Below are positions 15,183 to 44,933 of a stretch of DNA of 64,000 nt, piece by piece. Numbering within the stretch: the first letter of the stretch is position 1; each line of letters opens with the position of its first letter. Both the position numbers and the translations under genes were made by a program. The notes below the pieces were generated by a model. It was given only the letters and a program-made list of their open reading frames with translations. It was not told the DNA's origin and made no database searches. The stretch comes from Crossiella equi (GTDB lineage: Bacteria > Actinomycetota > Actinomycetes > Mycobacteriales > Pseudonocardiaceae), in the NCBI RefSeq assembly GCF_017876755.1, contig NZ_JAGIOO010000001.1, forward strand, positions 4,511,786 to 4,575,785. The letters run 5' to 3'.

Positions 15183-15213
15183 CTCACCAGCCCAGATGGA
15201 GAGGAACCCCGAG

Positions 15214-15738
15214 ATGACCAGCACCGACACCACCACCACCGAGGCCCCCGTGACCGGCGAGCGCGCGGACCTGCTCGAGGCCCTGAACCAGGTGCGCTTC
15301 TTCCTCCGGCACACCGCGCAGAACCTGACCGAGGACCAGGCGAACACCCGCAGCACGGTCAGCGAGCTGACGATCGCCAAGCTGCTCAAGCACGTGGCCC
15401 AGGTCGAGGAGACCTGGGTGGACTTCATCCTGGAGGGCCCGAAGCCGGTCTCCGAGGACCCGGCCGAGTGGGTGGAGCACTGGCTGGTCAAGGAGGAGGA
15501 GACCCTGGCGGTGCTGCTGGCCCGCTACGAGGAGGTCGCGGCGCGCACCGACCGCGTGATCACCGAGCTGCCGAGCCTGGACATCACCCACAAGCTGCCG
15601 GAGGCCCCGTGGTTCGAGCCGGGCAAGTCCTGGTCGGCACGCCGCGTGGTGGCCCACCTGATCGCCGAGATCGCCCAGCACACCGGCCACGCGGACATCA
15701 TCCGCGAGTCGATCGACGGCCAGAAGTCGATGGGCTGA
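15214..15738 (+). CDS. DinB/DUF664 family protein, copy 1
   Basis: 174 aa. Four-helix DinB-type metal-binding fold: the first metal histidine is in LLKHVAQVEETW and the other two in IAQHTGHADIIRE. In actinobacteria such proteins are often thiol (mycothiol)-dependent transferases, but the substrate cannot be read from sequence. I take the second ATG (15214) because GGAGAGGA lies 8 nt ahead of it; ATG 15196 would overlap that signal. Followed 4 nt later by a paralog. Confidence 0.85.
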   Translation: MTSTDTTTTEAPVTGERADLLEALNQVRFFLRHTAQNLTEDQANTRSTVSELTIAKLLKHVAQVEETWVDFILEGPKPVSEDPAEWVEHWLVKEEETLAVLLARYEEVAARTDRVITELPSLDITHKLPEAPWFEPGKSWSARRVVAHLIAEIAQHTGHADIIRESIDGQKSMG

Positions 15739-15742
15739 CCCC

Positions 15743-16252
15743 GTGCAGGGGGAACGCGCGGATCTGGTGGCAGCACTGGCAAGGGCCCGCCACCAGCTCC
15801 GCCGCAGCGCGGAGGGCCTGACGCTGGCGCAGGCCACCCGTCGCACCACGGTCAGCGAGCTGACCCTGGCGGGCTTGCTGAAACACCTGGCCGACGCCGA
15901 GGAGTCCTGGATGCACTTCGCGGTCCACGGCGCGATGGGCATGAACTACACCCAGGCCTACTTCGACCAGACCTTCACCCCGGCCGAGACCGACACCCTG
16001 GAAAGCCTGCTGGCGCGCTACGCGGCGGTGGCCCGGCACACCGACGAGATCATCACAACCGCGGACACCCTGGACACCAGCCACCAGCTGCCCGAAGCCC
16101 CGTGGTTCTACCCGGACCAGTCCTGGTCGATGCGCCGGGTGGTGGCGATGCTGATCGCGGAAACCGCCCAGCACGCGGGCCACGCCAGCCTCATCCGCGA
16201 GTCCCTGGACGGCAAGCGCCCCGCGGACGACCTCCCCCGGGCCGCGACCTAG
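15743..16252 (+). CDS. DinB/DUF664 family protein, copy 2
   Basis: 169 aa, clearly a tandem paralog of the gene before it: both carry GERADL near the start, TVSELT, LLKH, PEAPWF, SW-x-x-RRVVA and RES-x-DG-K in the same order. The metal ligands (LLKHLADAEESW and AQHAGHASLIRE) are kept. GTG start 4 nt after the previous stop, no Shine-Dalgarno sequence, so probably coupled. Its TAG overlaps the TAG of the convergent gene in one CTAG. Confidence 0.85.
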   Translation: MQGERADLVAALARARHQLRRSAEGLTLAQATRRTTVSELTLAGLLKHLADAEESWMHFAVHGAMGMNYTQAYFDQTFTPAETDTLESLLARYAAVARHTDEIITTADTLDTSHQLPEAPWFYPDQSWSMRRVVAMLIAETAQHAGHASLIRESLDGKRPADDLPRAAT

Positions 16253-16947: not shown

Positions 16948-18411
16948 ATGCGTGTTCGTCGTCTGTCCGTTGGGGTTGCCCTGGCCGCGGTGGGGGTGTT
17001 GGCGTTGGCGCCCGTTGCCGGGGCCGCGCCGCCGCCCACGACGCCGGTGCCCAGTCCCGTTGATCCCGGGCAGCCCGGGATGACCGATCCGAACGCACCC
17101 AAGCTGCCGCCGCTCGTGGCTGATGCCGGGACCGGGATCGGGATCGTTCGGGTGTTGCCCGGGTCGGTGCAGACCAACGCGCCTGGGCTCACCGATGAGG
17201 ACGAGAAGAAGCTGCCCAAGCAGGCCGTTGGGGAGCTTGGGCTCGGGTTGGCTTCCGCGCAGGTGAACTCGCAGGCGTTCCTGACCTTCGAGCGGGCGAT
17301 TGCCGAGTCCTCGCCGTTCGGGTTCGCCGTCAACGGGCGGGCGCCCCGGGTGCCCGGTGGGCTGTCGCAGATGGCCGTGCCCGACAACGCCCGGCCCACC
17401 ACCGGTGGGTTGACGCCGCCCGCGTCGCCCTTGGACGCGCTGCTCAAGGTCGGGGCGTTGCAGGGGAGTGTGCACGCCCGGTGGGACGAGAAGCTCGGGC
17501 CCTGCGTGGAGCCCGTGGCCGATGCCCGGACCTCGTTGGCCAGTCTGTCCGCCGTCAACGTCATCCCCACCCTGCCCGGGACCGCCGAGCTCGGGAAGGT
17601 GTTGCCCGGCAAGGACATCAAGCTCGACGGGCCGCTGAGCCAGCTCGGCGGGCTGCTGTCCGGGGAGAAGTCCGCCAACGGGGCCGGGGCGCTGCTCCGG
17701 CTGCCCGACCTGTTCAGCGCCCGCTCCACCGTGCGCCTCATCGACGTGCCCGGGGTGAAGGGCAAGGCCGTGCAGGCCACGTCCACGTTGCAGGTGGCCT
17801 CCATCCAGCTGCTCGCCGGGACGCCCGCCGAGGTGCGGATCGACGTGGTCAGCCAGCCCAAGCTCACCGCGATCTCGACCGGGGACGCCAAGACGTCCTC
17901 GGTGAAGTACGAGGCGCCCGTGCTGCGAGTCAGCCAGGGCGGCAAGGAGCTCGGCAAGCTCGACGCCGCCAACCCCAAGCTGGACGTGCCGATCCCGGTG
18001 CTGGGCGGGGCCTTGAACCTCGGCGTGCTGCGACTGAGCACGGCCCAGGTCAACGAGAAGCGGGACGGCTCGGCCGTGGGGGCCGTGGCCCGGCTGTTCG
18101 ACCTCGCGCTGCTGCCCACCGACGCCCTGAAACTGCCCGGACTGCCCAGCTCGCTCGTGCAGATCTCGTTGGGGGAACAGGTGGTTCGCGCCGCCGCGCC
18201 CGCGGGCGGGTACCCGTGCACGCCGGTCGCCGCGCCCACCAGCACCGCGCCCGCACCCGGTGCGCCCGCGCCGCAGGGGGCCGTGCCGCCGCTGGCTTAC
18301 ACCAACGGGGCCTACCAGACCGTGCCGCTGCTGTGGGCCGGGTTCATCCTGCTGCTGTCCGGCGTGGTCATCGTGGCCGCGCTGCCGGACCGCAGGCGCT
18401 ACCAGCGGTGA
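16948..18411 (+). CDS. secreted, C-terminally membrane-anchored protein of unknown function
   Basis: 487 aa. A clean signal peptide (basic start, hydrophobic core, cleavage near AGAAPPP) and a final membrane segment followed by DRRRYQR put the body outside the cell, anchored at the C-terminus. There is no LPxTG motif. The ectodomain is Gly/Leu/Pro-rich with many short strands; a Pro/Ala linker precedes the anchor. Two cysteines (GPCVEP and YPCTPV) could pair. GAGGAGGGG precedes the ATG. Codon use is similar to its neighbours but with more GGG and TTG codons in the first half. I do not recognise the family. Confidence 0.75.
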   Translation: MRVRRLSVGVALAAVGVLALAPVAGAAPPPTTPVPSPVDPGQPGMTDPNAPKLPPLVADAGTGIGIVRVLPGSVQTNAPGLTDEDEKKLPKQAVGELGLGLASAQVNSQAFLTFERAIAESSPFGFAVNGRAPRVPGGLSQMAVPDNARPTTGGLTPPASPLDALLKVGALQGSVHARWDEKLGPCVEPVADARTSLASLSAVNVIPTLPGTAELGKVLPGKDIKLDGPLSQLGGLLSGEKSANGAGALLRLPDLFSARSTVRLIDVPGVKGKAVQATSTLQVASIQLLAGTPAEVRIDVVSQPKLTAISTGDAKTSSVKYEAPVLRVSQGGKELGKLDAANPKLDVPIPVLGGALNLGVLRLSTAQVNEKRDGSAVGAVARLFDLALLPTDALKLPGLPSSLVQISLGEQVVRAAAPAGGYPCTPVAAPTSTAPAPGAPAPQGAVPPLAYTNGAYQTVPLLWAGFILLLSGVVIVAALPDRRRYQR

Positions 18412-18416
18412 GGACG

Positions 18417-18446
18417 GGGGTGGCCCGCCCGCGCGCGGACCACCCC
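18417..18446. terminator. hairpin between convergent genes
   Basis: GGGGTGG/CCACCCC with an inner CCGC/GCGG pair, located between the anchored-protein stop and the GH88 stop; followed rightward by TCGTTCCT. Confidence 0.65.
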
Positions 18447-18456
18447 TCGTTCCTCG

Positions 18457-19677
18457 TCAGAGACCGATCGCCTTGGCGATCTCCCGGGGCTTGAGCACCC
18501 GGAGGATGGCCTCCATCAGGTAGTAGTCGCCGTACGGCAGCGAGACCTCGATGCCGTTCTCCGCGCGGCGGTTCTTCGTCCCGCGCGCCAGCACCGCGTC
18601 GTGGTGCGGGATCTTCGTGGTGAGGCAGGTGCGGGACAGCGCGTCCAGCACGGTCAGCGCGGTGGTGTAGTACTTCGCGTTGCCGGTGATCTTGGCCAGG
18701 TCCAGCAGACCGCACGCGGTGACCGCGCCCGCCGAGGAGTCGCGGATGTCGTGGGGCGCCAACGGGGAGCGGTAGTCCCAGATCGGCACCGGGCTCTCCG
18801 CGAGGTAGGGCAGCACGTGGTCGGCCATCCGGGTGGCCGCGGTGAGGAACTCGCGGTTGCCGGTGCGGCGGTAGGTGGTGGCGAAGCCGTAGATGCCCCA
18901 GGCCTGGCCGCGCGCCCAGCACGAGGTCGGGCTGTAGCCCTGCACGGTGTTCGGGCCGAGCGTGGCACCGCTGACCGGGTCGAAGTCGAACACGTGCGGG
19001 GTGGAGCCGTCCGGGCGGATGAAGTGCTTGATCGTGGTGCGCGCGTGGTTGGTCGCGATGTCGGCGTACTTGGCGTTGCCGCTGACCTCGGTCGCCCAGT
19101 ACAGGAAGTCGAGGTTCATCATCGTGTCGATGATCGTGCGGCCCGCGTTGCCGGTGGAGCCGAGCGAGCCCCAGGCGCGGATGAACTTGCCCGCGGCGTT
19201 GTACCGCTTGCTCAGCGACTCCGCCGCCTGCAACGCGCCGTCCCGCCAGGAGGCCTCACCGGTGAGCCGCCACGCGGTGACCCAGGACGGGTAGAACAGG
19301 AAGCCCATGTCGTGCGTGCCGGTGTCCGGGATGCGCGGGGTCAGGCGCAGCGCCGCCTCGCGCGCCCAGGTCTCGAACTGCTTGTCGCCGCTGTCCACGT
19401 ACCCCAGCCACAGCAGGCCGGGCCAGAAGCCGCCGACCCAGCCGCCGTCGTTGACCGGGATCCACTTCTCGAACTTGGTCTCCTCCGGGAAGGTCTTGAC
19501 GTTGGGCGCGGTCTGGCGCAGCTTCGCGACCGCGTAGTCCAGCGTCTGCCGCAGCCGTGCCGGGTTGGGTGCGAACGCCTCCTGTGCGGGCGCGGCGAGC
19601 GCACCCGGCTGCATGGCCAGTGCTCCGGCGGTTGCTGCGGCTCCGGTGAGCAGCACACGTCGGGATAACGCGGTCAT
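18457..19677 (-). CDS. secreted glycoside hydrolase family 88 (unsaturated uronyl hydrolase)
   Basis: 406 aa. GH88 enzymes remove the 4,5-unsaturated uronic acid left at the non-reducing end by polysaccharide lyases (from glycosaminoglycans, gellan, xanthan or related polymers). Seen here: (alpha/alpha)-barrel pattern with DGGWVGGFWPGLLWLGY, GTHDMGFLF, TIIDTMMNLDFLYWA (catalytic Asp region), SCWARGQAWGIYG and IRDSSAGAV. The N-terminus MTALSRRVLLTGAAATAG resembles a Tat signal, so it should act outside the cell. AGAGGAC precedes the ATG. It is the second gene behind the permease (51-nt gap), and its product is the substrate of KduI encoded divergently. Relative GH105 is an alternative family. 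Confidence 0.85.
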   Translation of the reverse strand: MTALSRRVLLTGAAATAGALAMQPGALAAPAQEAFAPNPARLRQTLDYAVAKLRQTAPNVKTFPEETKFEKWIPVNDGGWVGGFWPGLLWLGYVDSGDKQFETWAREAALRLTPRIPDTGTHDMGFLFYPSWVTAWRLTGEASWRDGALQAAESLSKRYNAAGKFIRAWGSLGSTGNAGRTIIDTMMNLDFLYWATEVSGNAKYADIATNHARTTIKHFIRPDGSTPHVFDFDPVSGATLGPNTVQGYSPTSCWARGQAWGIYGFATTYRRTGNREFLTAATRMADHVLPYLAESPVPIWDYRSPLAPHDIRDSSAGAVTACGLLDLAKITGNAKYYTTALTVLDALSRTCLTTKIPHHDAVLARGTKNRRAENGIEVSLPYGDYYLMEAILRVLKPREIAKAIGL

Positions 19678-19728
19678 GTTGTCCTCTTCTCGGGGGAGTG
19701 CCTCACGGGGAAGGGGTGGCGCCCAGGT

Positions 19729-21330
19729 TCAGGGGGTGGGGACCATCCAGCCCAGCACGGGCGTGGACTGGAGGTAGCTGATGACGCACATGGCCAGTAG
19801 GAGCACCAGGCTCCAGCCGAACACGCGGCGGAACAGGTCGCCCTCCTTGCCGACCAGGCCGACCGCGGCGGTGCCGATGGCCAGGTTCTGCGGCGAGATC
19901 ATCTTGGCCATCACGCCGCCGGAGGAGTTGCTCGCGCCGAACAGGATCGGGGACGCGCCCACCTGCTGCGCCGCTGTGGTCTGGAGGCCGCCGAACAGGG
20001 CGTTCGCGCCCGCGTCGGTGCCGGTGATGGTGACGCCGAACCAGCCGACGATCGGCGAGAGGAAGGCGAAGAACGCGCCGGTCCCGGCCAGCCACACGCC
20101 GAGCGTGATGATCTGCCCGGACAGGTTCATCACGTAGGACAGCGCGAACACGCTCAGGATGGCCAGGATCGCCCAGCCGAACTGGCGGATCGTGCGCCCG
20201 TAGATGCGCAGCGCGGCACCGGGCGAGACCTTCAGCACCAGCAGCGAGAGCAAGCCGGAGAGCAGCAGCAGCGTGCCGGTGGCCGCGCCGATGTTGAAGG
20301 TGTACACGGTGGAGACCGCTTTCCCGTTCGCGGCGGCCACGTGCAGGCCCGGCCACTGGAACACCCAGGTGGCTTTGCCCAGCAACGCTTTCACCGCGTC
20401 GAACTGGGCCAGCGAGAAGACCGCCACGATGATCGCGTACGGCGCGAACGCGGTGACCACGTCCCGGCGCGAGTCCTCGGGCCCGTCGGCGTCCCCGGTA
20501 CCTCCGCCCACGCGCACCCGGTCGCGCTGCCGGACCCGGGTGACCAGCAGGACCGCGCCGACCGAGACGATCGCGGCGATGATGTCGCACAGCCGGTAGG
20601 AGATGTAGTTCGACACCACGAACTGCGTGCTGCCGAAGGACAGGCCCGCGGCCAGCGCCACCGGCCACGCCTCGCGCAGGCCACGCTTGCCGTCGGTGAT
20701 GAAGACCAGCAGGAACGGCACCGCCACGGCCAGGATGGACACCTGGCGCCCGGCCATCGCGCCATAGGCGTCCGCGGACAGGCCGGTGACCGAGCTGAGC
20801 ACGGTGATCGGGTTGCCCATGCCGCCGAAGGCGACCGGCGCGGTGTCCGCGACCAGCGACAACGTGGCCGCCTTGAGCGGGTGCACGCCGAGCGCGATGA
20901 GCATGACCGAGCAGATCGCGACCGGCCCGCCGCCTCCGGCAAGCGCTTCCAACAGAGCGCCGAAGGAGAACGCGATGACGATCGCCTGCACCCTCGGGTC
21001 GTCGCTGATCGAGCTGAACGCCCTGCGCAGCACGTTGAAGTGTCCGCTGTGGACGGTCAGGTTGTAGATCCAGATCGCGTTGAAGGTGATCCACAGGACC
21101 ACCAGCACGCTCTGCCCGGCGCCGTAGGCGGCCGCGTTGAGCGCCAGCCCGGCGGGCATCGAGTAGCCGAACACCGCGATGAGCAGGGACAACACCAGCG
21201 TGGCCAGGCCCGCCCAGTGCGCCTTCCAACGGAAGACGCCCAGCAGCACGAGCAGGGTCACCAGCGGCAGCAGCGCGAGCAGGGCGGAGAGGAAGAGCGA
21301 TCCCGTGGGGTTCGGGTCCTGCTGGTACAC
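19729..21330 (-). CDS. LctP-family permease (L-lactate permease type)
   Basis: 533 aa, about 13 membrane segments. Similarity to LldP/LctP is clear over the whole length: YQQDPNPTGSLFLSALLALLP at the start, FGALLEALAGGGGPVAI, TAPVAFGGMGNPI, GWFGVTITGTDAGANALFGG, and KMISPQNLAIGTAAVGLVGKE near the end. GTG 21330 is used because GAGAGGA lies 8 nt ahead; longer frames run into the divergent promoter. Known members carry lactate/glycolate. Its place between a GH88 gene and kduI/kduD suggests it imports a deoxy-keto-uronate instead, which would be a new substrate. That is inference. Confidence 0.9.
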   Translation of the reverse strand: MYQQDPNPTGSLFLSALLALLPLVTLLVLLGVFRWKAHWAGLATLVLSLLIAVFGYSMPAGLALNAAAYGAGQSVLVVLWITFNAIWIYNLTVHSGHFNVLRRAFSSISDDPRVQAIVIAFSFGALLEALAGGGGPVAICSVMLIALGVHPLKAATLSLVADTAPVAFGGMGNPITVLSSVTGLSADAYGAMAGRQVSILAVAVPFLLVFITDGKRGLREAWPVALAAGLSFGSTQFVVSNYISYRLCDIIAAIVSVGAVLLVTRVRQRDRVRVGGGTGDADGPEDSRRDVVTAFAPYAIIVAVFSLAQFDAVKALLGKATWVFQWPGLHVAAANGKAVSTVYTFNIGAATGTLLLLSGLLSLLVLKVSPGAALRIYGRTIRQFGWAILAILSVFALSYVMNLSGQIITLGVWLAGTGAFFAFLSPIVGWFGVTITGTDAGANALFGGLQTTAAQQVGASPILFGASNSSGGVMAKMISPQNLAIGTAAVGLVGKEGDLFRRVFGWSLVLLLAMCVISYLQSTPVLGWMVPTP

Positions 21331-21360
21331 GACTTCGGGTCCTCTCGCCTGACACAGGGT

Positions 21361-21386
21361 TGTTCCGTCGACAAGAACGGTGTTCC
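21361..21386. promoter_or_regulatory. repeat/palindrome in the divergent uronate promoter
   Basis: TGTTCC occurs twice (21361-21366 and 21381-21386), 20 bp apart, and the second copy overlaps the palindrome GAAC-GGT-GTTC (21375-21385). Two helical turns of spacing in the 140-bp gap between permease and kduI suits an operator for the IclR regulator of this island. Confidence 0.45.
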
Positions 21387-21470
21387 ATAGGCGGCGAGCC
21401 ACATCGTTACATCGCTCGGTCCGAATCGTAAAGGGCCATCCAGCGCAGACGCCCCGCCGGAGGCAAATTC

Positions 21471-22301
21471 ATGCAGATCAGGCACGCGACAAATCCCGCC
21501 CAGATCGACGGTTTCGACACCGAGGCGCTCCGCGCGCACTACCTGGTAGCGGATCTTTTCGAGCCCGGACAGGTGCACACGGTGTACTCGCACGAGGACC
21601 GGACGGTGCTCGGCGGGGCCGTGCCGAGGCCCGGCGAGCCCCTGCGGCTGCCGTCGGCCGACCCGCTCCGCGCCGAGAACTTCCTGGCACGGCGCGAGCT
21701 GGCGGTCGTGGCGGTGCGCGGCGGCGGCACCGTGACCGTGGACGGCACGGCGTACCAACTGGCTCATCGAGACTGCCTCTACGTCGGCCGGGGAGCGGTC
21801 GAGGTGCTGTTCGAAGCGGACGGAACGGACTCCCCGCATTTCTACCTCTTCTCCACTCCAGCCCACACCAGCCATCCGACGGAATTGGCGCGGTTCACGG
21901 ATGTGGACATTCTTGAATTGGGCGATCAGCGCACCGCGAACGTCCGCACGATCAGAAAGTTCATCCATGTGAATGGAATCTCCTCGTGCCAGCTCGTACT
22001 CGGCATCACCACGCTCGAGGAGGGCTCGGTGTGGAACACGATGCCCCCGCACACGCACGACCGGCGCACCGAGTGCTATCTCTACTTCGACCTGCCCGAG
22101 GAGCACCGGGTGATCCACCTGCTCGGTGAGCCGACGGCGACCAGGAACCTGGTGGTGTCCAACGAGCAGGCGGTGATCTCGCCCAGCTGGTCCGTCCACA
22201 GTGGAGCGGGCACGCACGCCTACTCGTTCGTGTGGGCCATGGGCGGGGAGAACCAGGCCTACGACGACATGGACCCGGTCGCCCTGACCGAGTTGCGCTG
22301 A
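21471..22301 (+). CDS. kduI: 5-keto-4-deoxyuronate isomerase
   Basis: Cupin-fold zinc isomerase that turns 4-deoxy-5-ketouronate, the spontaneous product of unsaturated uronate, into 2,5-diketo-3-deoxygluconate. 276 aa, as in E. coli (278). The metal-binding motif MPPHTHDRRTECYLYFD is intact, and YVGRGAVEVLF and MGGENQAYDDMD are family hallmarks. CGGAGG lies about 8 nt before the ATG. The first gene of kduI-kduD-iclR. A cluster of less GC-rich codons near residues 125-165 is mildly unusual. Confidence 0.95.
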   Translation: MQIRHATNPAQIDGFDTEALRAHYLVADLFEPGQVHTVYSHEDRTVLGGAVPRPGEPLRLPSADPLRAENFLARRELAVVAVRGGGTVTVDGTAYQLAHRDCLYVGRGAVEVLFEADGTDSPHFYLFSTPAHTSHPTELARFTDVDILELGDQRTANVRTIRKFIHVNGISSCQLVLGITTLEEGSVWNTMPPHTHDRRTECYLYFDLPEEHRVIHLLGEPTATRNLVVSNEQAVISPSWSVHSGAGTHAYSFVWAMGGENQAYDDMDPVALTELR

Positions 22302-22311
22302 GGAGCCCCGG

Positions 22312-23079
22312 GTGAACGTCGCAGTCCAGCAGCTGTTCTCGTTGCGCGGGCGTACCGCGCTGGTCACCGGCGCACGCACCGGCATCGGCCGGGCCATCGC
22401 CAACGGCCTGGCCAGCGCCGGTGCCGACCTGGTGCTGCTCGGCCGCAGCGGGGACCTCGCCGAGGTCGAGGCCGAGATCCGCGAGCACGGGGTGAAGGCG
22501 CGCAGCCTCGTGGTGGACCTGGCCGAGCCCGAAGCGGTACAGCAGGAGGTCGGTGCGCTGCTGGCGAACCAGGAAGTCGACGTCCTGGTCAACAACGCGG
22601 GCACGATCCACCGCCAGCCGGCGGCAGAGGTGCCGCTCGCGGACTGGCGGCGCGTGCTCAGCGTGAACCTGGACTCGGTGTTCGCCCTGTGCCAGCTGGC
22701 CGGGCGGCAGATGGTCGAGCGCGGCTCGGGCAAGATCATCAACATCGCCTCGCTGCTCAGCTTCCAGGGCGGCATCCTGGTGCCCGCCTACACCGCCAGC
22801 AAGCACGCGGTGGCCGGGCTGACCACGGCGCTGGCCAACGAGTGGGCCGAGCACGGCGTGCAGGTCAACGCGATCGCGCCCGGCTACATCAGCACGAACA
22901 ACACCGCGGCCATCCGCGCGGACCACGTGCGCGAGCCCGCGATCCGGGGCCGCATCCCGGCGGGCCGCTGGGGCGACCCGGAGGACCTGGTCGGCGCCGC
23001 GGTGTTCCTGGCCTCGCCCGCGTCCAACTACGTCAACGGCCACGTCCTGGTCGTCGACGGGGGCTGGATGGGCCGGTGA
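22312..23079 (+). CDS. kduD: 2-deoxy-D-gluconate 3-dehydrogenase (KduD)
   Basis: Short-chain dehydrogenase that reduces 2,5-diketo-3-deoxygluconate to KDG with NAD(P)H. The cofactor loop TGARTGIGRA (about residues 19-28), NNAG, the catalytic Ser in SLLSFQGG and Y-x-x-x-K (YTASK) are all present, and the C-terminus ends in VDGGWMGR, the usual KduD ending. 255 aa, GTG start with GAGGAG upstream, 10 nt after kduI. Its stop overlaps the start of the regulator gene (GTGA). Confidence 0.93.
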   Translation: MNVAVQQLFSLRGRTALVTGARTGIGRAIANGLASAGADLVLLGRSGDLAEVEAEIREHGVKARSLVVDLAEPEAVQQEVGALLANQEVDVLVNNAGTIHRQPAAEVPLADWRRVLSVNLDSVFALCQLAGRQMVERGSGKIINIASLLSFQGGILVPAYTASKHAVAGLTTALANEWAEHGVQVNAIAPGYISTNNTAAIRADHVREPAIRGRIPAGRWGDPEDLVGAAVFLASPASNYVNGHVLVVDGGWMGR

Positions 23080-23816
23080 CGGAGGCCCCGCCGGGCGCGG
23101 TGGAGAAGGCGCTCGCGGTGCTGGAGGCGCTGGCCGAGCACGGGCGCGTCACCGATCTGGCCCGGGTGACCGGGCTGCCGAAGTCCACCGTGCACCGGGT
23201 GTTGCGGACGCTGGTCGAGCAGGGGTTCGCCCTGCCCGACCAGCACGGCAACTACCTGGCCGGGCCGAAGGTGCTGGCGCTGGCCGGGCGGGTGCTGCAC
23301 CGCCTGGACCCGGCCCGCCGGGCCCGGGCACCGCTGGCGGCGTTGCAGGCCGATACCGGCGGCACGGTGCACCTCGCCGTGCTCACCGGCGATGAACTGG
23401 TGTGCGTGGACCGGGTCGAGGGCGACAAGCCGTACCGCCTGGCCTCGCGCGCGGGCCGGGCGCTGCCCTTGCACCGCAGCGCGATCGGCAAGGCCGTGCT
23501 GGCCGCGTTGCCGCCCGCCGAGCTGACCGCGGTGCTGGCGCGGCTGCCCCTGTCCCCCACCTCGCCGATCGCGGTGCGCGAGGCGCTGGCCCCGGTCCGG
23601 CGGGCCGGGTTCGCGCTGGACGACGAGGAGCACCAGGCGGGTGTGCGCTGCGTGGGTGCGGTGGTGCGCGACCACACCGGCGCGGTGCTCGGGGGTGTGG
23701 ACGTCTCCGCGCTGGCGATCGAGCACACCATGGCCGAGCTGCGCGAACACGGGCACCGGGTGGTGCGGGCGGCGGCCGAGGTCTCGCTCGCGTTCGGCCA
23801 CACCCCTACCCTGTGA
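23076..23816 (+). CDS. IclR family regulator of the uronate genes
   Basis: 246 aa. Winged helix at the N-terminus (DLARVTGLPKSTVHRVLRTLVEQG) and an IclR effector domain (SAIGKAVLAALP, then the DDEEHQAGVRCVGAVVRD motif). The GTG overlaps the kduD TGA by 4 nt, so it is translationally coupled to the pathway. Known relatives such as KdgR sense KDG or related keto-deoxy acids and repress uronate catabolism, which fits here. Kinase and aldolase for KDG are not in the window. Confidence 0.9.
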   Translation: MTEAPPGAVEKALAVLEALAEHGRVTDLARVTGLPKSTVHRVLRTLVEQGFALPDQHGNYLAGPKVLALAGRVLHRLDPARRARAPLAALQADTGGTVHLAVLTGDELVCVDRVEGDKPYRLASRAGRALPLHRSAIGKAVLAALPPAELTAVLARLPLSPTSPIAVREALAPVRRAGFALDDEEHQAGVRCVGAVVRDHTGAVLGGVDVSALAIEHTMAELREHGHRVVRAAAEVSLAFGHTPTL

Positions 23817-23826
23817 CCCACATTAC

Positions 23827-23906
23827 AGAACGACTGTTCTCCCCCCTCTTGTACTCGGCTCGACATCGGCCGTAACGTTCTCCCCAGCAGAGAGAACGAA
23901 CGTTCT
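23827..23906 (+). promoter_or_regulatory. promoter flanked by two GAAC-N4-GTTC palindromes
   Basis: AGAAC-GACT-GTTCT (23827-23840) and AGAACG-AA-CGTTCT (23893-23906) both contain GAAC-N4-GTTC. Between them lies a candidate promoter, TTGTAC (23849) - 18 nt - TAACGT (23873). Sites flanking the promoter of one gene suggest repression, by LexA or another regulator that uses the same core. Confidence 0.5.
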
Positions 23907-23928
23907 TTCCGGTCCGGAGGAGCCAGCC

Positions 23929-24756
23929 ATGAGCACCAAGACCGCCGACACCGTCCTGCTGATCCACGGCCTCTGGCTGACCCCGAAGAGCTGGGACGGC
24001 TGGGTCGCCCGCTTCACCGAGCAGGGCTACCGCGTGCTCACCCCCGGCTGGCCCGGCGTCACCACGCCCGAGGAGGTCAACGCCGACCCGGCGCGCCTGG
24101 ACGGCCTGGGCATCACCGAGATCGTCGACCACTACGCCGGGATCATCGACGGCCTGGACCGCCAGCCGATCCTGATGGGCCACTCCTTCGGCGGCCTGAT
24201 CGTGCAGATGCTGCTGGACCGCGGTTACGGCGCGGCGGGTGTGGCCATCCACTCCGGCGCCCCCAAGGGCGTGTGGCGGTTGCCGCTGCCCACCCTGCGC
24301 TCAGGCCTGCCGGTGCTGGGCAACCCGTTCAACGTGCGCCGCTCGGTACCGCTCAACGAGAAGCAGTTCCGCTACTCCTTCGGCAACCTGCTCAGCGTGG
24401 AGGAGTCCCGCCGCACCTGGCAGGAGCAGGCCATCCCCGGACCGGGCCGCCCGTACTTCCAGGCCGCGCTGGCCAACCTCAACCCGCGCGCCGTCACCAC
24501 GATCGACCGCCGCAACCCCGACCGCGCCCCGCTGCTCGTCGTCGGCGGCGGCAGGGACCACGTGGTCACCGCGAGCTACTCGCGGGCGAACTACCGCGTG
24601 CAGCGGCACAACCCGAACCTGACCGAGTACCTGGAGTACCCCGAGCGCGGGCACCTGACCGCGAGCGACCCGGGCTGGGAAGAGGTCGCGGACACCACGC
24701 TGGCCTGGGCCGTGCGGAACCAGCGCGCGTCGGTCAACCTTGCGCCAGCGTCGTGA
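23929..24756 (+). CDS. alpha/beta hydrolase
   Basis: 275-aa serine hydrolase without a signal peptide. Visible: oxyanion-hole sequence LLIHGLW, nucleophile elbow GHSFGG (Ser about residue 87), acidic residue region VVGGGRDHVV and the catalytic His in YPERGHL. GGAGGAGCC precedes the ATG. Substrate unknown; the fold covers esterases, lactonases, haloperoxidase-like and other enzymes. It has its own promoter with two palindromes and ends 23 nt inside the convergent holB gene. Confidence 0.87.
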   Translation: MSTKTADTVLLIHGLWLTPKSWDGWVARFTEQGYRVLTPGWPGVTTPEEVNADPARLDGLGITEIVDHYAGIIDGLDRQPILMGHSFGGLIVQMLLDRGYGAAGVAIHSGAPKGVWRLPLPTLRSGLPVLGNPFNVRRSVPLNEKQFRYSFGNLLSVEESRRTWQEQAIPGPGRPYFQAALANLNPRAVTTIDRRNPDRAPLLVVGGGRDHVVTASYSRANYRVQRHNPNLTEYLEYPERGHLTASDPGWEEVADTTLAWAVRNQRASVNLAPAS

Positions 24757-44520: not shown

Positions 44521-44758
44521 GGTGCCCCCTGGGGTGTGCGGTTGTGGTCGTGCGTGGGACCACCGTGGCGCGTCTGGAGGGGCTGGGCAGGCAAGGGCGG
44601 CTGGGCTGTGGACAGGTGGGGTGCACTGTGCACAAGTCGCGATCTTGGAGGCCGTCCGCAGGGGTGCTGTCGGAGGCATGGGGTACTGCCGCGAGTGCGC
44701 GGTGGCCCGGCGATCCGGGGCTCCAGTGGCTACTGAGCGCCACCGGCCGCAGACATGG

Positions 44759-44827
44759 GACGACCCCCGCCAGGGGGGAGGGACGGGGGTCGTCTGGAGT
44801 TCAGCCCCGGGGGGTCGGACTGAACTC
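44759..44827. promoter_or_regulatory. paired hairpins in the tad/HAD intergenic leader
   Basis: GACGACCCCC/GGGGGTCGTC (10 bp, 16-nt loop, 44759-44794) and GAGTTCAG/CTGAACTC (8 bp, 15-nt loop, 44797-44827) stand side by side in the 425-bp gap 44521-44945. TACAGT on the leftward strand at 44851-44856 is a possible -10, which would put both hairpins in the tad leader RNA. The rest of the gap shows nothing I can name. Confidence 0.5.
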
Positions 44828-44933
44828 ATCCGGCACAGCCGGACGTCACTACTGTATCCCCCCTTGGGCGGGTGACGCTTCTCGTCCGTTCGAGCGACAC
44901 GGCTCGCAACCGCATCGCTATCTGGCCGACACC

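Follow-up and report, generated by a model that had tools for sequence, protein, structure and literature searches.

What does a permease of the lactate family carry when its gene stands beside those for breakdown of unsaturated uronates? The question is raised by a five-gene uronate cluster at positions 18457..23816 of a 64,000-nucleotide stretch of Crossiella equi DNA (the window), which comes from a 9.44 Mb genome in one contig. The original prediction had described a GH88 enzyme with a twin-arginine translocation (Tat)-type signal, an LctP-family permease, KduI, KduD, and an IclR-family regulator, and all five genes lie where it had placed them (Table 1). Our most likely reading, which we hold with moderate confidence, is that the permease imports the GH88 product, either as 5-dehydro-4-deoxy-D-glucuronate (DHU) or as its unsaturated (cyclic) precursor. 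The original prediction had proposed import of the deoxy-keto uronate, and the comparisons below lend it partial support. We favor uptake of the Kdu substrate because of five features: (i) a motif shared by the permease gene and kduI; (ii) replacement of the permease by another transporter in comparable clusters; (iii) twin-arginine signals on the clustered GH88 enzymes; (iv) changes in the permease core motif; and (v) the absence of lactate or glycolate oxidase genes nearby. The cluster as a whole would then best be read as a monosaccharide-scavenging version of the Kdu pathway.

Table 1. Features of the uronate cluster, in window coordinates
Feature	Position	Strand	Remarks
GH88 unsaturated glucuronyl hydrolase-like, twin-arginine signal (MTALSRRVLLTGAA...)	18457..19677	-	profile and solved-structure matches
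LctP-family permease, GGG...GGMGNP core motif	19729..21330	-	open frame reaches 21402
Operator-like motif GGAAC-N3-GTTCY-N7-GGAAC	21362..21386	-	conserved; putative IclR binding site
KduI, 5-dehydro-4-deoxy-D-glucuronate isomerase	21471..22301	+	profile and structure matches
KduD, 2-dehydro-3-deoxy-D-gluconate 5-dehydrogenase	22312..23079	+	profile match
IclR-family regulator	23076..23816	+	profile matches; 4-bp overlap with kduD

We compared the five products with profile models and solved structures. KduI passed the cut-off of NF002091 (386.7 bits; cut-off 250). Solved DHU ketol-isomerases, 1x8m among them, align along the length of the protein, and 1xru and 7e4s also match it by sequence. 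KduD passed TIGR01832 (342.0 bits; cut-off 338.85) and fell below the cut-off of an alternative model, NF005390 (347.1 bits; cut-off 369). The regulator exceeded the cut-offs of both HTH_IclR and IclR_C and is not KdgR by model (NF011671, 112.1 bits versus a cut-off of 275). The GH88 enzyme had no match among NCBIfam models; it passed PF07470 (30.6 bits; cut-off 26.6) and was matched strongly by solved unsaturated glucuronyl hydrolases (1vd5, E 8e-63). Two Asp residues that we take to be catalytic, one in HDxGFL and one in IxD, align with 1vd5 and are kept in all 16 clustered GH88 enzymes.

Lactate permease is the common annotation of LctP proteins. The window permease shares this family with LldP, GlcA, LutP, and Staphylococcus aureus LctP and passes the subfamily model TIGR00795 (434.5 bits; cut-off 341.15) and PF02652. 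It misses the equivalog models for LldP (NF007740, 392.6 versus 918 bits) and GlcA (NF007249, 388.8 versus 1121 bits). Its start is most likely the GTG at 21330, because homologues begin there. The closest homologues, among the matches listed, were from Crossiella, and identity to the non-actinobacterial rows of our permease alignment was 29-40%. A search by sequence for a solved structure related to the LctP family found none.

We scanned genome contigs, one genome per species (84,980 species), for permease homologues; the best 80 matches gave 77 distinct loci, whose flanks were examined up to 8 kb, with KduI found by tblastn. The original prediction had allowed that close homologues might never lie beside kdu genes, and this is clearly not the case: kduI lay in the flank of 28 of the 77 loci (hereafter kdu-linked). 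The divergent layout of the window recurred in 27 of these, the genes of L038 all lying on the same strand. kduD was beside kduI in 26 (exceptions L018, whose kduI is only partial, and L020), and iclR was present in 27 (exception L003). Hosts include Pseudonocardiaceae, Actinopolysporaceae, Streptosporangiaceae, Thermomonosporaceae, Micromonosporaceae, and Catenulisporaceae. As separate observations, the Actinoallomurus and Actinoplanes loci show an apparent stepwise erosion in which the permease is kept (L020 without kduD, L018 without kduD and part of kduI, L024 without all of them), and in Actinopolyspora (L032:1769-5492) a second KduD-like gene adjoins genes for a GntP-family permease and a GntR/FCD regulator near the kdu cluster.

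By reading the intergenic regions between permease and kduI, we recognized a common operator-like motif (Table 1). Our search pattern was a relaxed form of this motif, drawn from these same regions. Of the 28 kdu-linked loci, 25 contained it, L037 twice (26 hits in all), and always just before the permease gene; none of the other 49 permease loci did, and there was no further match in 1.276 Mb. Because the pattern was derived from kdu-linked regions, its absence elsewhere is the informative part. The exceptions were L003, where the palindrome stands alone and no third half-site is present at the expected distance, L021, which has a variant recognizable by eye, and L038, with no match. Taken together, the conserved linkage and the conserved motif lead us to reject chance co-location of the permease with kdu genes.

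The original prediction had also proposed a single divergent promoter. A single divergent region of 140 bp does separate permease and kduI, and a promoter is suggested by this layout together with the conserved motif; a search of 18300-24000 for a sigma-70-type consensus found none. The IclR protein may bind the motif, presumably as a repressor. In the source genome, the window site is the only copy without mismatch and one other, with 1 mismatch, lies at G000:C1:3973413-3973437 (+), so the motif points to no wider regulon. We had considered such a regulon, and the genome-wide pattern search tied no lyase, kinase, or aldolase to the motif.

The kdu-linked permeases differ at fixed positions from LldP, GlcA, and Bacillota members. 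Two core segments are changed, EGAAGFG to EALAGGG and FGAxGIP to FGGxGNP, such that the Phe of GFG becomes Gly and the Ala and Ile of GAxGIP become Gly and Asn; in the window permease, counted from the GTG at 21330, these are G133, G170, and N173. The resulting GGG...GGxGNP (GGN) was present in all 29 aligned kdu-linked permeases. We refer to LctP proteins that keep the Phe of the GFG core motif as F-type, a grouping of our own that follows no published criterion; the window permease reads GGG and is not F-type. For comparison, we assembled 72 loci of the class, comprising 70 fetched loci from a class-wide LctP search plus L128 and L129. The Phe is kept in 71 of the 72, the sole exception being L128 (genome G362), which is GGN and kdu-adjacent. 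None of the 70 had KduI in its fetched flanks, which reached up to 5 kb; the distance of KduI from the permease is about 2 kb in L128 and about 13 kb in L129, where the permease is F-type.

A rival reading is an ordinary permease for lactate, glycolate, or pyruvate that is merely co-located with the kdu genes, or that exports or re-imports pyruvate from the pathway. KDPG (2-keto-3-deoxy-6-phosphogluconate) aldolase yields pyruvate, and characterized family members carry monocarboxylates: Escherichia coli LldP and GlcA are annotated as lactate/glycolate:H+ symporters, and S. aureus LctP and LldP are described in part of PMC12632267 as pyruvate carriers, which makes the family range already wider than lactate. 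Against such a permease speak the loss of a Phe that 71 of 72 class loci keep, the motif shared with kduI, and the surrounding genes. We looked near permease loci for genes like E. coli LldD, GlcD, GlcE, and GlcF, and found none in the window or near 42 GGN or kdu-linked permease loci outside it, including the 28 kdu-linked loci, L128, and the 12 unlinked GGN loci. Among the class loci, 21 of 70 had such genes, as did L129 and 4 of 35 further F-type loci. We therefore regard a monocarboxylate permease as improbable, the more so as a different kind of transporter can fill the same slot.

This replacement is seen in Kribbella (the genome of L036): next to the kduI-kduD-iclR unit L216, and oriented divergently from kduI, a PF00474 sodium:solute symporter gene occupies the position of LctP. 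The symporter is 75% identical to that of L124, one of five loci (family f19: L124, L125, L126, L130, and L131), probably of Streptosporangiaceae, in which kduI-kduD-iclR lies near a PF00474 symporter gene. With the narrower model TIGR00813, the L124 symporter scores 119.4 bits, short of the cut-off of 184. These symporter clusters resemble that of the window in gene order and in their IclR proteins, which are 44-54% identical to the window IclR (51-54% in f19). They differ in having the symporter for LctP and another operator-like motif, and L124 and L131 also differ in having a kinase gene beside the unit: the gene in L124, like that beside the kdu unit of L127, has as its best NCBIfam match a 2-dehydro-3-deoxy-D-gluconate (KDG)/KDGal kinase model, below cut-off, and the gene in L131 is of the PfkB type.

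The other motif, GTTYYATGTARYRGAAC, stands before the symporter gene in each of the five f19 loci (0 or 1 mismatch) and before kduI with 1 to 3 mismatches. Further copies lie at the start of the kinase gene in L124, L127, and L131 (1 mismatch) and just past iclR in L125, L126, and L130 (1 or 2 mismatches). In 70 control loci (794 kb) there was no copy with 1 mismatch or fewer, 1 with 2, and 13 with 3; given these control hits, the weaker kduI sites (3 mismatches in L124; 2 in L130 and L131) are not compelling alone. We note separately that the f19 loci contain a candidate IclR regulon, in which one motif is common to kduI-kduD and the symporter gene, plus a sugar-kinase gene in L124 and L131.

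On inspection, each of the 16 clustered GH88 enzymes, that of the window included, begins with a twin-arginine signal (RR followed by a hydrophobic stretch), and the enzyme appears to be exported by the Tat pathway. The original prediction of an extracellular pathway variant is supported to this extent; it is narrowed by the distribution of the enzyme, which accompanies the window genes but just 15 of the 28 kdu-linked sets. The genes permease-kduI-kduD-iclR form the core unit, to which some lineages have added the apparently extracellular GH88. In 13 of the 15 GH88-bearing loci, the start of GH88 and the stop of the permease gene overlap or are at most 1 bp apart; the gap is 65 bp in L002, 49 bp in L003, and 51 bp in the window. 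One could instead suppose that the permease imports intact unsaturated oligosaccharides and that GH88 acts inside the cell, as the streptococcal enzyme does after disaccharide uptake (described in part of PMC12838403). The signals on all 16 enzymes and the 13 of 28 kdu-linked loci without GH88 in the flank argue against this, as does the uptake of small monocarboxylates by the known LctP-family carriers, and we consider it very improbable.

The core-motif evidence for import of DHU or its precursor has its limits. Both GGN permeases of the class comparison (the window and L128) are kdu-adjacent, 2 of 2, versus none of 71 F-type loci (72 genes, two of them in L146), but the Fisher p of ~4e-4 overstates independence because GGN rows are phylogenetically clustered. 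In a permease tree of 135 rows, built without the three motif columns, 41 rows are GGN. They form three groups: the clade of the window permease, which holds 36 of them, L036 with L128, and three Acidobacteria. All kdu-linked rows (29) are GGN, and 12 GGN rows are unlinked. A single GGN clade, with 26 GGN rows held together in a 48-row tree, was rejected by an approximately unbiased (AU) test (p 1.4e-10), for which the group was named after the tree had been seen and the 48 rows were chosen by hand. The tree requires at least three changes of the GGN state, two of them forced by strongly supported branches, and repeated loss would explain it no worse than repeated gain. The motif of the f19 loci, too, was first noticed by eye and counted afterwards.

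The distribution of the genes weighs against import of DHU or its precursor. L018 and L020 lack kduD, yet they retain the permease and the operator-like motif. Among the eight unlinked members of the window permease's clade, six (L014, L015, L017, L024, L028, and L035) come from genomes without KduI and keep GGN, and two (L027 and L031) have KduI elsewhere in the genome; KduI was missing in 8 of the 11 genomes searched, including those of the partial permeases L041 and L046. The three acidobacterial GGN permeases (L055, L065, and L078) have no kdu linkage. In a class-wide sample of 394 genomes, 31 had KduI above cut-off, and KduI and LctP occurred together in eight (G000, G085, G200, G248, G321, G328, G362, and G371) versus 6.2 expected, which is no clear enrichment; the two were adjacent in just 2 of the 31 KduI genomes. 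GGN thus goes with kdu linkage but is insufficient for it.

Permeases of this clade in genomes that lack KduI mean that the substrate may be broader than DHU. The permease could carry different or more varied C6 sugar acids, namely saturated hexuronates, KDG, or aldonates, with KduI-KduD one of several routes that it feeds. The acidobacterial L078 permease adjoins RraA-like and enolase-superfamily (MR_MLE) genes, and an MR_MLE gene lies about 7 kb from that of L055. E. coli KduI, according to part of PMC3578941, aids galacturonate and glucuronate conversion under osmotic stress. A Pfam scan of 30 neighbor genes from selected loci found no consistent pathway for unlinked permeases. The partners that are linked are KduI and KduD, and GH88, whose product is an unsaturated uronate, overlaps the permease gene in most GH88 loci; we consider the wider range unlikely. 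We tentatively propose, at somewhat less than even confidence, that GGN members of the LctP family from Actinomycetota and Acidobacteriota are functionally distinct sugar-acid importers, which probably arose on more than one occasion through an identical set of three core changes, that the actinobacterial ones import extracellular DHU, and that the three residues report a switch from lactate to a C6 keto-uronate.

We returned to the source genome for the rest of the pathway. Outside the cluster, it has one match to polysaccharide lyase family 1 (PL1) and another four to PF07470. It has no PL8, which is present in 64 of the 394 class genomes, and this excludes PL8 as the source lyase here; a supply of products made by other organisms' lyases, and scavenged, fits. 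Two KDPG-aldolase matches (2914254 and 5153319) are each next to an ILVD_EDD dehydratase gene, and the second is accompanied by a GntR/FCD regulator as well. A PfkB-type kinase at G000:C1:2417790 scored best with KDG-kinase models, below their cut-offs, and adjoins a KdgR-like IclR gene that is itself below cut-off. The original prediction had noted that no lyase and no KDG kinase or aldolase lies in the window; the PL1, KDPG-aldolase, and PfkB matches are indeed all outside it, the lyase part of this statement covering PL1 and PL8. Elsewhere in the window, we observed a 6C RNA at 44755-44829 (-) (76.5 bits) and, at 15196-16252 (+), two neighboring open frames that look alike in sequence and are perhaps a tandem duplication.

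On these grounds, we suggest the following route for uptake of DHU or its precursor. Lyases outside the cluster, possibly those of other organisms, would leave oligosaccharides with unsaturated uronate ends, from which the Tat-exported GH88 would release unsaturated uronate outside the membrane. The permease, with its core changed from a GFG...GAxGIP-like to a GGG...GGxGNP form, would import DHU or the cyclic precursor, probably coupled to H+, as annotated for LldP and GlcA. KduI would isomerize DHU and KduD would then reduce the product to KDG, with the candidate kinase at 2417790 and one of the two KDPG aldolases (2914254 or 5153319) completing the breakdown. IclR would repress both transcripts via the shared motif until an intermediate appears.

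The proposed route shares its isomerase and reductase steps, and GH88, with the glycosaminoglycan and pectin Kdu pathways of streptococci and Dickeya, as described in part of PMC12838403. In those pathways, the same partial account has oligosaccharides enter through phosphotransferase (PTS) systems, ATP-binding cassette (ABC) transporters, or porins, unsaturated disaccharides being imported by PTS and ABC systems before the unsaturated glucuronyl hydrolase step; in the window, by contrast, GH88 appears to be exported and the transporter would take up a monosaccharide. The words "permease" and "lactate" do not occur in the main text of PMC12838403. Vibrio alginate systems of the sodium:solute symporter (SSS; ToaABC) or tripartite tricarboxylate transporter (TTT) type are similar in that secondary carriers are encoded with unsaturated-uronate/KDG enzymes, but parts of PMC13390454 and PMC8286568 ascribe oligosaccharide uptake to these carriers, and the sugar is 4-deoxy-L-erythro-5-hexoseulose uronate (DEH) and the reductase DehR. 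In the open-license PubMed Central literature, judged by titles and the starts of abstracts among the matches listed, we recognized no link between LctP and uronates.

The sequences compared here suggest that an LctP-family transporter has been repurposed in soil actinobacteria for uptake of an unusual sugar acid from extracellular polysaccharide breakdown. TIGR00795 is named as a lactate permease model, and if the three residues mark carriers of uronate-derived sugar acids, lactate-permease annotations could be corrected. The LctP family, for which we found no solved relative by sequence, would gain a testable specificity determinant, and a specific importer of DHU would be supplied. Some soil actinobacteria would then complete the degradation of unsaturated oligosaccharides on the outer side of the membrane, leaving the product open to sharing or scavenging.

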